From: Phycisphaerales bacterium
Lineage (GTDB): Bacteria > Planctomycetota > Phycisphaerae > Phycisphaerales > SM1A02
Assembly (NCBI GenBank): GCA_022446905.1
Contig: JAKVBT010000013.1
Location: 1 to 44,074, forward strand
DNA length: 44,074 nt
Direction of reading: 5' to 3'
Under the pieces are notes generated by a model, which saw only the letters and a program-made list of their open reading frames with translations, was not told the origin of the DNA and did not search any database. The position numbers were made by a program, and so were the translations under genes. Positions 24,437 through 28,943 of this stretch are shown here, piece by piece (position 1 is the stretch's first letter; each line of letters starts with the position of its first letter).

Positions 24437-24649
24437 ATGCTCGTGATCACGAGAAGAGAAGGTGAAGAAGTAGTGATTGGTGACCCCACAAACCCTGTTG
24501 GGGTGGTGCGTGTTGCCTCAGTGAAGGGTGACCGGGTCCGTCTCGCAATGGACTTCCCGCGTGAGGTCGAAGTCCATCGACGCGAGGTGGCCGACCAAAT
24601 CATGTCGGAGAAACCCCCAATCGCTGGCAAGATCCGCCCAGGCGGCTGA
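24437..24649 (+). CDS. csrA: Carbon storage regulator, RNA-binding protein
   Basis: A 70-residue homodimeric RNA-binding protein that blocks or stabilises mRNAs at GGA motifs. The family sequence is clear: MLVITRREGEEVVIGD, VRVASVKGDRVRLAMD and PREVEVHRREV with the RNA-binding Arg and the final helix. The extra PTNPVG loop lengthens the second strand region by a few residues. An excellent AGGAGGG lies seven bases before the ATG. GGA triplets at 24404-24406, in the Shine-Dalgarno (24424-24426) and at the start codon (24435-24437) make self-repression plausible. No CsrA antagonist such as fliW is adjacent. Confidence 0.96.
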   Translation: MLVITRREGEEVVIGDPTNPVGVVRVASVKGDRVRLAMDFPREVEVHRREVADQIMSEKPPIAGKIRPGG

Positions 24650-24856: not shown

Positions 24857-25528
24857 TCAGCGTCGACGACGTCGACCAGCGACGCCAGCGATGCCAAGCA
24901 GAGCCAGCGCACCAGGCGCTGGAATCCAGTTGAGCCCGTAGTTCTGGAAGGTCTCACCGTTGGCATCAGAACCTTGGATATTCAGCAAACCAGTCAGGTC
25001 AGCATAGCCATCGCCACTGCCACCGACGACGGTGAACTGTCCGATGAGTACGCGGCCGTCGATCGGGTTGCCCTGATCATCGGCTGGAGTGACAAACCAA
25101 GAACCGTTGTCGGTCTCAATTCCGCCGCCCGCTTCGAAGCCTGAAAAGTCAATGCCGATGTCCAACAAGTTGTTCGACCCATAAGGGTTGCCTGAGGCAT
25201 CCAGTGCGCCGATGGTTACGAACGAGTCGTACTCAAGTGATGGCGCCAGTGGGTAGAACATCGGATTGTTACCAGTCGACAAGGCATTGCCATAGACGTT
25301 CTGATAGAACGACATGCTTGCATCGGCCAGGCCGATACTCAGAGTGCCCTGCGAGTTGCCGAACAAGGCGTCAATTCGAGTGCCTTCATCCACAACTGCA
25401 TACATTTGGTAGGTAATGCCGTTTCCAGTGTCCCCGAGACTATCAATCTCGATTGACACAACATCTGCTGTAGCAGATGCGGCTGCGACAAAGGCGCTTG
25501 CAGCGCCAAGAACAATGAGGGTCTTCAT
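24857..25528 (-). CDS. Secreted PEP-CTERM-type surface protein, paralogue 1
   Basis: A protein of 223 residues. It has a signal peptide (MKTLIVLGAASAFVAAAS, cleavage near ATA-D), a beta-rich acidic body with glycine- and aspartate-rich segments, and a C-terminal IPAPGALALLGIAGVAGRRRRR, that is a PEP-CTERM-like tripartite signal of Pro motif, hydrophobic helix and Arg cluster. In related bacteria an exosortase recognises and removes such tails during export; none is in this window. The ATG is chosen because GAGGAG lies ten bases upstream and the signal peptide begins there; the open frame continues 64 codons further up but without secretion features. The body aligns with the next upstream protein (PLAPSLEYDSFVTIGAL, DIGIDFSGFEAGG, FVTPADDQGNPIDGRVLIG). 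Function unknown. Confidence 0.92.
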   Translation of the reverse strand: MKTLIVLGAASAFVAAASATADVVSIEIDSLGDTGNGITYQMYAVVDEGTRIDALFGNSQGTLSIGLADASMSFYQNVYGNALSTGNNPMFYPLAPSLEYDSFVTIGALDASGNPYGSNNLLDIGIDFSGFEAGGGIETDNGSWFVTPADDQGNPIDGRVLIGQFTVVGGSGDGYADLTGLLNIQGSDANGETFQNYGLNWIPAPGALALLGIAGVAGRRRRR

Positions 25529-26127
25529 TTCCGATCTTCTCCTCGTTGAGCCAACAAGAAGGCCCAACTCGTTGTTAGTCCACGGCGTGGCGACCGCAGC
25601 GTTCGGTTCTCCCAATGGCCCAACAATTCCATTTCCTTCCTTCTCCATGGCTCCAAGTCGCACCACCGACTCATCACCGTTCGAAATGGGGGCTCTGCTT
25701 CCGAGGGCAATGTACCCCAAGTCCTCCCCGGGTCAAGCCTGACTCTGGTGACAAAAGGTGCTGTTTTGACGGTTGTTCCGTTTCGAACGGCAGATCTTGC
25801 GCGATGCCTGAGAGGACCGATAGAACGGTGGTTTTTGCCATGCCAGCGAGGCTTTCCAGGGGTGGACCCAGCGCAAAGAGCCTCTAGGAACTCAGCGAAG
25901 CCTGAAATCTACATCTACCCAAACGCAGCTGCTAGCGGCTGGAGGATTTGAGTGGCTTCTAGGACAAGTCATTGCGAAAGAAGCACTTGCTGCTCACTGC
26001 ATGCCAGACCAGGTTGCCCAATGCAGTCAATTCTGAATGAGGCTCCCTTCTGGGGCCCTTACTGCATCACTTCAACCCTGATTGCGGGGCCTAAAACGCC
26101 CCATACCCCTTCGCATGGCAAAAAGAA
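25529..26127. other. Non-coding stretch with leader and upstream region of PEP-CTERM gene 1
   Basis: About 600 bp without a credible gene. On the - strand a promoter at 25709-25736 gives a leader of about 175 nt that contains weak stems (ACCG/CGGT near 25590-25605, CCACG/CGTGG at 25580-25590) and a direct repeat GGCCCAAC at about 25562 and 25617. The part from about 25750 to 26127 holds nothing I can assign. Open frames in this region lack start signals and family resemblance. Confidence 0.5.
25709..25736 (-). promoter_or_regulatory. Candidate promoter of PEP-CTERM gene 1
   Basis: Reading the - strand: TTGACC, 16 bp spacer, TACATT. The -35 is identical to, and the spacing the same as, that before the second PEP-CTERM gene. 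Transcription would begin near 25702. Confidence 0.55.
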
Positions 26128-26160
26128 CGCCCGCCGCTGTGTGGGGCACAGCGGCGGGCG
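26128..26160 (-). terminator. Strong intrinsic terminator of the second PEP-CTERM gene
   Basis: A perfect 14 bp GC-rich stem, CGCCCGCCGCTGTG with CACAGCGGCGGGCG, around TGGGG. On the - strand it is followed by TTCTTTTTG. The + strand side has CTTTTTG a few bases on, so it could work both ways. It separates the two PEP-CTERM genes into independent transcripts. Confidence 0.9.
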
Positions 26161-26230
26161 GATGCTTTTTGAGCAAGGACTGGGCAGTGAACTATCCCGA
26201 GTTCAGACCAGTCCAGTCACCATCGAGCCC

Positions 26231-26923
26231 TCAGGCGCGACGACGACGACGACCGGCCAAACCAGCCAGCCCGAGAAGGGCAATGGCGCCTGGCGCGGGG
26301 ATCGCATCAATGAAGATGCTGTGCTGCTCTTGGAAGGTGTTGCCACCGGAGCTGCCTTGGAAGCCTGCAGTAAAGTAGGCATCAGCAACGCCGTCAAGGT
26401 CACCGTAGATCGTCAACTGAGCAACGAGGACACGGCCGTCAACAGCTTCACCCTGCGCATCGGCAGGAGTGATGAAGAACGTACCGTTGTCGACTACACC
26501 AGAAGCGGGCAGGTTGCCACCGGCTTCCCAGTTGGACCAATCGATACCGATGTCCTGCAGGGAGTTATCGGAGCTGTAGAGAGCACCGATGGTGAAGTAG
26601 CTGTCCCATTCCATCGACGGGGCCAGCGGGAAGAAGGCCTGGTTGATGGATGTACTGGTGGGGCCACCGAGGGAGTTCTGGTAGCCAGTAGCACCATTCA
26701 GGTACTCGAGCTGAAGGCCATAACTCGAATTGCCGAAGACGGCATCGAGACGATCGCCAGAACCGTCGAACTCGGCATACACACGAGCGGTGTATGTACC
26801 GGCGACCACTCCGTCACCAGTCTGCTCGACAATGTCGTAGCTCAGACCAGTCATGGCGGCCATCGCAGAACCGGCGACCATAAGGCCAGCAGCGCCTGCG
26901 AGGATGGAAGTATTCGTGTTCAT
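26231..26923 (-). CDS. Secreted PEP-CTERM-type surface protein, paralogue 2
   Basis: A protein of 230 residues built like its downstream neighbour: signal peptide (MNTNTSILAGAAGLMVAGSAMA), beta-rich acidic body and C-terminal IPAPGAIALLGLAGLAGRRRRRA. Matching segments with paralogue 1 include DAVFGNS, FFPLAPSMEWDSYFTIGAL, DIGIDWSNWEAGG and FITPADAQGEAVDGRVLVAQ, so the pair arose by tandem duplication. The family is not one I can name; a role at the cell surface or outside the cell is inferred from the sorting signal. AAAGG precedes the ATG at about 11 bases. The gene has an unusually long structured leader of about 280 nt and its own terminator. Confidence 0.92.
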   Translation of the reverse strand: MNTNTSILAGAAGLMVAGSAMAAMTGLSYDIVEQTGDGVVAGTYTARVYAEFDGSGDRLDAVFGNSSYGLQLEYLNGATGYQNSLGGPTSTSINQAFFPLAPSMEWDSYFTIGALYSSDNSLQDIGIDWSNWEAGGNLPASGVVDNGTFFITPADAQGEAVDGRVLVAQLTIYGDLDGVADAYFTAGFQGSSGGNTFQEQHSIFIDAIPAPGAIALLGLAGLAGRRRRRA

Positions 26924-27207
26924 ATCTTTGAACCTTTCTCTTCTCTATTCTTGAGGACCACAAATCTAGATCTAGATCTCGCTCCACCCGGCACACACCG
27001 GTCATCAGGGTCGCGTTCCCTGCCGTGGAGATCGATCAACAAGACCAGTCACGCACTGGTCGAAATAACTGCTTTAAGGGTGTCTGTGAGCACTGTGTGA
27101 GTCTGGCGAAAGCCGACTCCTCCTAAGTCCTTTGGCCCCCCGGGGACACCGAAGGATCTTTCTTCCCTATTCCTGACGCTCCGAAAAACGCCGTAAACAC
27201 CACGACG
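26924..27207 (-). ncRNA. Structured leader RNA of PEP-CTERM gene 2 (unclassified)
   Basis: Predicted from the promoter at 27208-27235 to the start codon, about 280 nt. Four stems can be read by eye. (1) TCCTT/AAGGA plus UGG/CCG and CCCC/GGGG, 27128-27156. (2) GAGTC/GACTC plus GGC/GCC, 27099-27119. (3) A perfect 7 bp GACCAGT/ACTGGTC with a 5 nt loop, 27043-27061. (4) CTCCAC/GTGGAG plus GGCA/TGCC closing a further hairpin, 26982-27030. A self-complementary AGATCTAGATCT follows. It does not match the c-di-GMP, cobalamin, SAM, glycine or fluoride riboswitch consensus as I know them. Function as a regulator is inferred; it could be only a stabilising leader. Confidence 0.5.
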
Positions 27208-27235
27208 ACCATACCTTCCGTCGCCTTGAGGTCAA
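27208..27235 (-). promoter_or_regulatory. Candidate promoter of PEP-CTERM gene 2
   Basis: Reading the - strand: TTGACC, 16 bp spacer, TATGGT. The -35 lies within the inverted repeat CCTTGA-GG-TCAAGG (27224-27237), which could be an operator overlapping the promoter. Confidence 0.55.
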
Positions 27236-27335
27236 GGGGACATCAAGGTAGGTGCCCACTTTTTTACGGCCCCGGCGGATGGTGGATCCGTCCCAGGCCG
27301 CAATATTCCATTGATTCTTTCACACCAAAGATCCC
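27236..27335. other. Spacer between miaB and the PEP-CTERM promoter
   Basis: About 100 bp after the miaB stop. It contains an imperfect hairpin GGCGGAT/ATCCGTCC near 27276-27296 and, on the - strand, an A-run after it rather than a T-tract, so it is not a clear terminator. No gene seen. Confidence 0.4.
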
Positions 27336-28943
27336 TCACACTGGATTCAGAGCACCCTCGAGGCTGCCACGAAGCAGCCTAGGAGCCGCAGAATGGACCC
27401 TGACGGGCACAATCTCCCCAATCAGGGACTCAGCCGACTGCGTTGGCGGCACATCAAAGACCGTGATGAGGTCCCCTGGCGTTCTCCCAGAAAGTTGGGC
27501 TTGTGGCCCCACAGGTGTTTCCCAGCCCAGTTCTACCCGGCCAGCCGGGGCCTGCTGAGCCCCACCCGTCCCTAACTTCTCAACAAATACCTCATGGAGA
27601 TGGCCAATCTCACGCTCATGCACGGTCCGGCTCACCTCGGACTGAATCGCCAACAAGGTATTGAGCCGTGACCGCTTCACCGCTTCAGGAACATCGTCCT
27701 CAAAGCGGTTGATCGCGGCCGTTCCCGGCCGTGGGGAGTACTTAAAGACGAAGTTGTTTTTAAAGGGCACCGATCTGATCAGATCACAAGTCTGATCAAA
27801 GTCTTCATCCGTTTCAGTAGGAAATCCAACAATGATGTCCCCTGCAATAGAAACATCTGGCATGGCCGAACACACACGATCAATGAACTCTCGATACTGA
27901 CTCACCGAATAGCCACGATTCATGCGTGAGAGAATGCGATCGGATCCAGATTGGGCTGGCACATGCAGATACCGACAAATGCGGGGGCACTGCTGCATGA
28001 CCTGCAGAATGTCGTCGCCAAAATCTCGTGGGTAGCTTGTGACAAATCGAAGCCGTTTGATTTCCGGCACTTCATCATGAATGCGAGCCAGAAGATCTGC
28101 GAAACTCGTCTTACGAGAACCGGGGCCTCCAGCTGTTCCGTTGCGGAATGCTGACAATCCAGGTCCAACCTGCGGCAGTTCGTCTCCACAGCTAGACACC
28201 GCCGCCCCATGCACGTAGACATAGTGGTTCACAGTCTGCCCAAGCAGGGTGATTTCAATCACACCCTGATCTGCCAAGGCTCGACACTCTTGGACAATGG
28301 CATCAGGTGGGCGGTGCACCTCTGCGCCACGGGTATTGGGAACCACACAGTAGGTACAGAATTTGTTGCACCCCCGTGTGATGCGCACATAGGCCGCTCG
28401 CCCACCAATCGCCCCACCATCTGGATCAAAAGCACGGGAGAGGTCCAACACTTCCAAGGAATCCTCTGCTGCAGACAAGGCTGCAGACCGCCTCGAGTTT
28501 GACCCCTGCAAAGCGACCCGGTCCGCAGCTTCGACGGCCTGACCCTTCAGAATGTTGTCTAGCAGCATGGGGAGATGATCGAGTTCGCCAGGACCACAGA
28601 GCAGATCAATCTCTGGCCGTCGCTGTAGAAGTCCAGAACCCTCTCGCTCAGCAAGACAGCCCAGCAAGCCAACAACTACTTCACGCCCCTTGTCTTTCTC
28701 CTGTCGCAAGCGACCCACGCGGCTGAACACTTTGTTTTCCGCTTGCTCCCGGACCGAACAGGTGTTGAATAGCACTACATCGGCAGTGCCAGGCTGATCG
28801 ACAAACTGATAGCCAAGCGCCTGCAGGTGACCGGTGACCAACTCGCTATCGAGTTCGTTCATCTGGCACCCAAAGGTCTCCAAATAGATCGCTGGACCGA
28901 TCGGCTGATTATGAATGGTTGGCGTCACCATGGAACCTCGCAT
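27336..28943 (-). CDS. miaB: tRNA-2-methylthio-N6-isopentenyladenosine synthase
   Basis: Radical-SAM methylthiotransferase acting on A37 of tRNAs. The N-terminal UPF0004 domain carries the three auxiliary-cluster cysteines in ETFGCQMNELDSE, FNTCSVRE and GLLGCLAERE. The radical-SAM motif is RGCNKFCTYCVVP. Later come VGFPTETDEDF and FKYSPRPGT, which is MiaB-specific, and a C-terminal TRAM domain. An insertion of some 25 residues after the VNHYVY segment is not in the E. coli enzyme. Length is about 535 residues. The chosen ATG has GAGGG eight bases upstream; another ATG 12 bp in, with AGG, is possible. The open frame extends far upstream across the divergent ftsW gene, but that part has no family match. 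Confidence 0.96.
   Translation of the reverse strand: MRGSMVTPTIHNQPIGPAIYLETFGCQMNELDSELVTGHLQALGYQFVDQPGTADVVLFNTCSVREQAENKVFSRVGRLRQEKDKGREVVVGLLGCLAEREGSGLLQRRPEIDLLCGPGELDHLPMLLDNILKGQAVEAADRVALQGSNSRRSAALSAAEDSLEVLDLSRAFDPDGGAIGGRAAYVRITRGCNKFCTYCVVPNTRGAEVHRPPDAIVQECRALADQGVIEITLLGQTVNHYVYVHGAAVSSCGDELPQVGPGLSAFRNGTAGGPGSRKTSFADLLARIHDEVPEIKRLRFVTSYPRDFGDDILQVMQQCPRICRYLHVPAQSGSDRILSRMNRGYSVSQYREFIDRVCSAMPDVSIAGDIIVGFPTETDEDFDQTCDLIRSVPFKNNFVFKYSPRPGTAAINRFEDDVPEAVKRSRLNTLLAIQSEVSRTVHEREIGHLHEVFVEKLGTGGAQQAPAGRVELGWETPVGPQAQLSGRTPGDLITVFDVPPTQSAESLIGEIVPVRVHSAAPRLLRGSLEGALNPV

Follow-up and report, generated by a model that had tools for sequence, protein, structure and literature searches.

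The mRNA of the E. coli ompA gene carries a 5' stem-loop in a stabilising leader. Protective 5' stem-loops, SD sequences and ompA are discussed in a review (PMC7509114), and the leader of the S-layer gene slpA of Lactobacillus acidophilus is described as stabilising its mRNA (PMC6482533), both mRNAs encoding abundant surface proteins. c-di-GMP riboswitches adjoin PEP-CTERM genes in M. nitratireducenticrescens GP59 (PMC12530212), and single-gene cis-regulatory leader motifs with a narrow phylogenetic range and covariation are described in PMC2864571, whose main text makes no mention of PEP-CTERM or exosortase. Among the papers listed in a literature search there was no cis-acting RNA for planctomycete PEP-CTERM genes, a thin negative. 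The leader presented here resembles those of ompA and slpA (PMC6482533), by description, in the association of leader stem-loops with a surface-protein gene. What sets it apart from ompA and slpA is a hairpin with covariation about a GCGT(G) loop, together with the conservation of a palindrome and of a 13-nt purine block at the ribosome-binding site (RBS). It shares with the GP59 case the presence of structured RNA beside PEP-CTERM genes, and with the motifs of PMC2864571 the narrow range and the covariation. Unlike both, it had no Rfam match, and the c-di-GMP-I riboswitch (RF01051) was found in none of nine genomes, a search in which 14 control genomes gave no match either.

The window, the whole stretch of DNA analysed, comprises 44,074 nucleotides of contig JAKVBT010000013.1 (assembly GCA_022446905.1, Phycisphaerales bacterium), and the features given below lie on its minus strand unless otherwise stated. 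The gene at 26231-26923 encodes a PEP-CTERM-type surface protein of 230 aa with the C-terminus PAPGAIALLGLAGLAGRRRRRA. Its PEP-CTERM-like tail scored below the curated cut-offs (PF07589, 14.2 bits vs 20.7; TIGR02595, 14.1 vs 16), and the string PAPGAxALLGxAGxAGRRRRR was invariant in 17 cases. Exosortase (PF09721) was found over its cut-off in seven of the nine genomes of the genus, including that of the window. Upstream of the gene lies the promoter TTGACC-N16-TATGGT (27208-27235), with TTGACC at 27235-27230 and TATGGT at 27213-27208. Between it and the ATG at 26923 there are 284 nt, in agreement with a preliminary description of this locus, which had placed the promoter here with a gap of about 280 nt. 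The leader RNA, deduced from the sequence and its comparison, was assigned to 26924-27207, and its predicted 5' end near 27201 would give it a length of about 278 nt. A block located 5' of the promoter (27260-27289), composed of GGATCC (27289-27284) and CGTAAAAAA (27268-27260), showed few changes in all nine genomes of the genus and may function as an UP-element. When the window sequence was considered alone, promoter-like sites were at chance level (2 per 3-kb stretch vs 1.1 expected) and the fold energy of the leader was unexceptional (z +0.35, with a fold as good or better in 124 of 200 shuffles), so that neither promoter nor fold went beyond chance; it was the homologues that indicated that both are real.

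Close homologues of the PEP-CTERM protein were found in the same genus by protein search, and the named hits were mostly marine Phycisphaerales or planctomycete MAGs. The upstream regions of nine genomes of the genus were alignable, with an invariant GGAAGGTATGGTC round the -10 hexamer, CTTGACY at -35, an A-tract block farther up and a conserved leader end, from which conservation continued directly into the RBS. A BLAST search of 61 genomes with the leader DNA aligned, within the genus, hardly more than the promoter portion and the end at the RBS, and its matches outside the genus look like chance. A covariance model (R1), built from the nine sequences over their last 136 positions, was then run over 181 genomes of the family and gave matches at E<=1 in 24 of them, nine of which were its own source genomes. 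Nine further genomes, three of genus g50 (E 2e-6, 9e-4 and 0.62) and six of genus g61 (E 6e-5 to 3e-3), had the match directly before the start of the homologous gene, the start codon reading ATC in G099; this genome (E 0.62) scored no better than chance matches and was counted solely for its position. Six weak matches (G130, G026, G093, G171, G030 and G087; E 0.097-0.72) were set aside as chance, there being no PEP-CTERM gene behind them. On 35 named loci the model gave 16 matches at E<=1, including those of the uninspected loci L141 (E 0.15) and L131 (E 0.21). The window genome was an outlier among the nine, scoring 100 bits vs 145-168 for the others.

The pattern GAGAAGAGAAAGGT-N4-12-ATGAA, which describes the purine block and its spacing to the start codon, occurred at 23 places in 22 of the 181 family genomes, belonging to five of 45 genera (the reversed-pattern control gave 0). 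A sample of 397 genomes from across the class gave four with the pattern, every one of them from this family. So far, the leader RNA has been seen in only a few marine genera, all belonging to one family, and the R1 matches and the purine-block pattern agreed in their consistent position preceding homologous genes. The pattern matches together with G099 gave a set of 24 leaders (23 distinct, five genera), 237-363 nt in length, one copy per genome preceding the homologous gene. The exception is G174, in which two contigs carry the same letters; its loci L082 and L090 have an identical leader and gene start, probably because a contig was duplicated or mis-binned. In G007 the contig ends within the gene. 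All 24 leaders had TTGAC[CT]-N16-TAnnnT at the corresponding place, each with a 16-nt spacer even though 15-18 nt were allowed, whereas shuffled upstream stretches matched this pattern in 63 of 9600 cases (0.7%). A transcription start close to the ATG, which the preliminary description had named as evidence against a long leader, is not what the sequence scan predicts, because no good promoter was seen near the start codon: the best site there had nine of 12 matches in one leader (G173), and the others had eight or fewer.

No Rfam family matched the window at the gathering threshold. At E<=10, seven sub-threshold matches appeared in 25400-27400, none of them inside this leader, and no match was obtained at E<=1 in 20 related loci, which bears out the earlier remark that the leader is unlike the known riboswitch classes. 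As judged from the sequence comparison, the leader is a real RNA family with no Rfam match and with one hairpin supported by covariation. This hairpin, GACCAGT-GCGTG-ACTGGTC (27043-27061), contains the perfect 7 bp stem seen beforehand (GACCAGT/ACTGGTC, 27061-27043). Among the nine leader ends, two-sided changes affected five of its seven stem pairs, and seven of nine in the extended helix; in twelve sequences of two genera, compared in the best register, there were 11 distinct stems, nine with 7/7 pairs and three with 6/7. The loop read GCGTG in the window's genus, g1, and either GCGT or ACGT in g50. The full leader alignment was also scanned without bias for pairs of 4-column windows, with 80% or more occupancy of the columns, 90% pairing and two or more two-sided pairs required; this returned five windows, all in the GCGTG hairpin, which was the only helix recovered. 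The same scan found no convincing helix in the alignments A5 (one window) and A6 (five windows), giving a rough background for the method. The covariation among homologous leaders that had been proposed as a check was therefore present, for the GCGTG hairpin only.

A branched element is predicted at 26982-27030, with the closing helix CTCCAC (27030-27025)/GTGGAG (26987-26982) and inner hairpins at 27022-27006 and 27001-26988. It has a counterpart in the other eight genomes of the genus, so that the element first described is present and conserved; its closing helix, itself conserved, showed no two-sided changes, however, and was missed by the scan. An inner helix had one two-sided pair, in one sequence; in this part of the alignment, G003 and G005 appear to be one base out of register. 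When the 24 proposed pairs were evaluated over the nine leader ends, 92.1% of the cells were formed vs 85.3% in shuffles (0 of 500 as high) and 25-49% in a slid-partner control, and eight pairs were changed on both sides vs 4.2 in shuffles (0 of 500 as high). The further pair types, one of five measures, were at shuffle level (16 vs 15.7; 285 of 500 shuffles). Taken together, the comparison gives good support to one helix, that of the GCGTG hairpin, and is consistent with the branched element; the other members of the at least four stem-loops initially proposed are predictions of folding. Consensus folds from RNAalifold were not relied on, either for the whole genus leader (two-sided changes in eight of 35 pairs) or for g61 (eight of 45) and g5/g8 (14 of 50); in g61 and g5/g8 the covariation term was unfavourable. 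A pairing that would sequester the RBS in g5/g8 was not seen in the genus of the window.

Sliding windows of 50 nt, scored against mononucleotide shuffles in 23 leaders, showed an excess of folding that peaked at the predicted 5' end (mean z -2.08, 17 leaders below -1) and thus agreed with the predicted start. Moving the window upstream of this end by 25 and 50 nt gave a mean z of 0.01 and -0.40, and at +25 it was -1.17. Around the GCGTG hairpin, 150 nt ahead of the ATG, the value was intermediate (-1.47), and windows whose first base lay 50 and 75 nt ahead of the start codon scored +0.15 and -0.10; for whole leaders the mean over all 24 was -1.41. The corresponding 5'-terminal stem-loop of the window leader is predicted at 27168-27199 and is weak (z -0.30, vs a mean of -2.05 over the 24 leaders). 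In all 24 leaders the first paired base came no more than 11 nt from the predicted 5' end, but this was also so in 91% of shuffles and is no evidence. Near the other end lies the palindrome ATCTAGATCTAGAT (26964-26977). Of the 24 leaders, 22 have an equivalent of at least 8 nt in the 62 nt preceding the RBS block, and 19 reach p<0.05 against shuffles; the palindromes sit 9-36 nt before the purine block and have letters that differ between genera, those of G001 and G008 being only imperfect. The purine-rich ribosome-binding region GAGAAGAGAAAGG (26933-26945) is the 13-nt block kept in five genera, and no second or antisense copy of this 13-mer was found on either strand of the genome. In the nine leaders of the genus, the block was predicted to be 0.42-0.71 unpaired vs 0.36-0.43 for the whole leader.

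The explanation that we tentatively favour, and to which we give slightly less than an even chance, is that the leader is a cis-acting element that protects the mRNA and presents the RBS. A promoter that we infer to be strong would produce an mRNA with a structured 5' leader, whose 5'-terminal stem-loop, covarying GCGTG-loop hairpin and branched element would shield the message, presumably against an RNase, while the last 50-75 nt, with the palindrome and the long purine-rich RBS region, would remain comparatively unstructured. Acting in cis, the leader would then make the mRNA long-lived and well translated, its product being a surface protein that is sorted by exosortase and probably abundant. 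The comparison of sequences supports the promoter, the position of the leader, the covariation of the hairpin, the folding excess at the 5' end and the lack of such excess at the RBS. The core of a ligand-binding switch is normally kept across genera, and here much of the leader diverges between genera while the 5' stem-loop stays, which fits a protective role more than a ligand-binding one. A conserved promoter, 5' folding, a structured middle part, a less structured purine RBS and a largely drifting sequence suggest that a leader of the ompA/slpA type fits better than a switch. Against this explanation, the conserved loop, the palindrome and the 13-nt purine block exceed what simple shielding would need, the 5' stem-loop of the window leader is weak and its whole fold average (see above), and the predicted accessibility of the RBS at 37 C varies widely between leaders (0.30-0.81 over 24).

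The main competitor is a switch that would bind a metabolite or a protein and alter translation of the surface protein without a terminator, which we consider unlikely though worth serious attention. The covarying hairpin with its conserved loop and the kissing loop in the leader of the adjoining gene (see below) would suit it, as would the ability of the CCAC of the branched element to pair, in our reading, with either of two GTGG segments. A block resembling CCCGAG-Y-GAGGAGTGGGG points the same way, since it occurs in eight of the nine genus leaders and in a changed form in three g50 leaders, but it is missing from the window's own leader. By eye, no aptamer-like core was kept over five genera, and the RBS was not consistently sequestered in the predicted folds. 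The c-di-GMP riboswitches that flank PEP-CTERM genes in GP59 (PMC12530212) offer a precedent, against which stand the lack of any Rfam match and the negative RF01051 search, itself accompanied by silent controls. Of the new cis-regulator suggested in the preliminary description, a long, conserved and covarying leader unlike Rfam families is supported, and its regulatory reading ranks below the protective one. Improbable in our view is that the palindrome is a DNA operator at which a dimeric repressor acts as a roadblock, the long leader being a mere spacer: the persistence of the palindrome although its letters change between genera speaks for this, but its position is some 190 nt or more into the transcript, and the covariation of the hairpin and the 5' folding peak would go unexplained.

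Other readings appear less probable still. An upstream ORF or an independent small RNA conserved in the intergenic region is very unlikely, because the open frame common to some genus leaders (e.g. G003, G004, G005 and G007) is, in our reading, shifted or closed by indels in G000, G001, G002 and G006, only weak terminator-like sites were found in the window leader, the one scanned, and conservation runs straight into the RBS. Binding of CsrA, as earlier suggested, has no better prospects and was not supported. A csrA gene is present 1.6 kb downstream (24437-24649, plus strand; PF02599, E 3.5e-15), converging on the PEP-CTERM pair, three ANGGA motifs occur in the window leader vs 1.5 expected, and g50 leaders have GGA directly before the start codon; yet an excess of GGA (p<0.05) was seen in only one of 24 leaders, and the conserved purine block GAGAAGAGAAAGG has no GGA. 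Least credible of all is an RNA thermosensor, another early suggestion, which has nothing beyond the long leader in its favour and which the predictions do not support, since the mean accessibility of the RBS in the 24 leaders changed little with temperature (0.50, 0.50, 0.54 and 0.60 at 10, 20, 37 and 50 C).

The adjoining gene (24857-25528) encodes a second PEP-CTERM-type protein of 223 aa, which also scored below the cut-offs of the family models (PF07589, TIGR02595). It is preceded by the promoter TTGACC-N16-TACATT (25709-25736) and by a second leader RNA (25529-25702), different from the first and indicated by covariation; the genome search with the first leader did not retrieve it. In seven sequences, two-sided changes were found in 17 of 34 pairs (0 of 500 shuffles as high), the structure having been obtained by RNAalifold from the same alignment used for the pair test, and the pair types showed no clear excess (36 vs 33.2; 63 of 500 shuffles). 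The loop GTGGTG (25666-25661) can kiss the loop CGCCAC (25592-25587) through six pairs, all six of which can form in nine of nine sequences; four are invariant and two are compensated, both in G008. A covariance model from the seven sequences (R2) recovered two copies that had been held out, one from G008 (E 2.7e-16) and one from G100 of g50 (E 5.3e-13). Each stops at the ATG of a homologue, which on the G008 contig is present for its first 62 residues only. Weak R2 matches in G079, G010, G196, G157, G147 and G150 were taken as chance, a tally that leaves aside the uninspected matches in G189 and G204.

That adjoining surface-protein genes both have structured leaders would suggest that the cell surface is commonly controlled at the post-transcriptional level in these uncultured marine bacteria; both leaders provide alignments and covariance models open to direct testing. 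It could even be, although we hold this doubtful, that each PEP-CTERM paralogue of these marine Phycisphaerales has its own control RNA, one leader with the GCGTG hairpin, palindrome and purine RBS and the other with the covarying kissing loop, which would then represent new classes of cis-acting sensors that determine the composition of the cell surface.

Between the two PEP-CTERM units there is a terminator-like hairpin on both strands (26128-26160; 15 and 14 pairs, with T-rich tails). Nine loci were inspected for their neighbouring genes (L111, L112, L113, L115, L116, L118, L123, L120 and L117), some of them on short stretches. A MiaB-like radical SAM gene, recognised by our own motif test, was located 5' of the leader in all nine, a second PEP-CTERM gene was found downstream in four, within the stretch available, and a CsrA-like ORF behind the gene in one (L111), a point that would also favour CsrA. 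Among other homologues, that of L093 (G026, genus g19) lacks the purine RBS block and has a 14-nt palindrome, TTCTAGATCTAGAA, close 5' of the start codon. A third group of PEP-CTERM homologues (L098, L099, L100, L102, L104 and L106) has, by eye, a stretch resembling GGAAGCGGCG downstream of the promoter region, as well as a hairpin near the ribosome site, and looks like another leader family.
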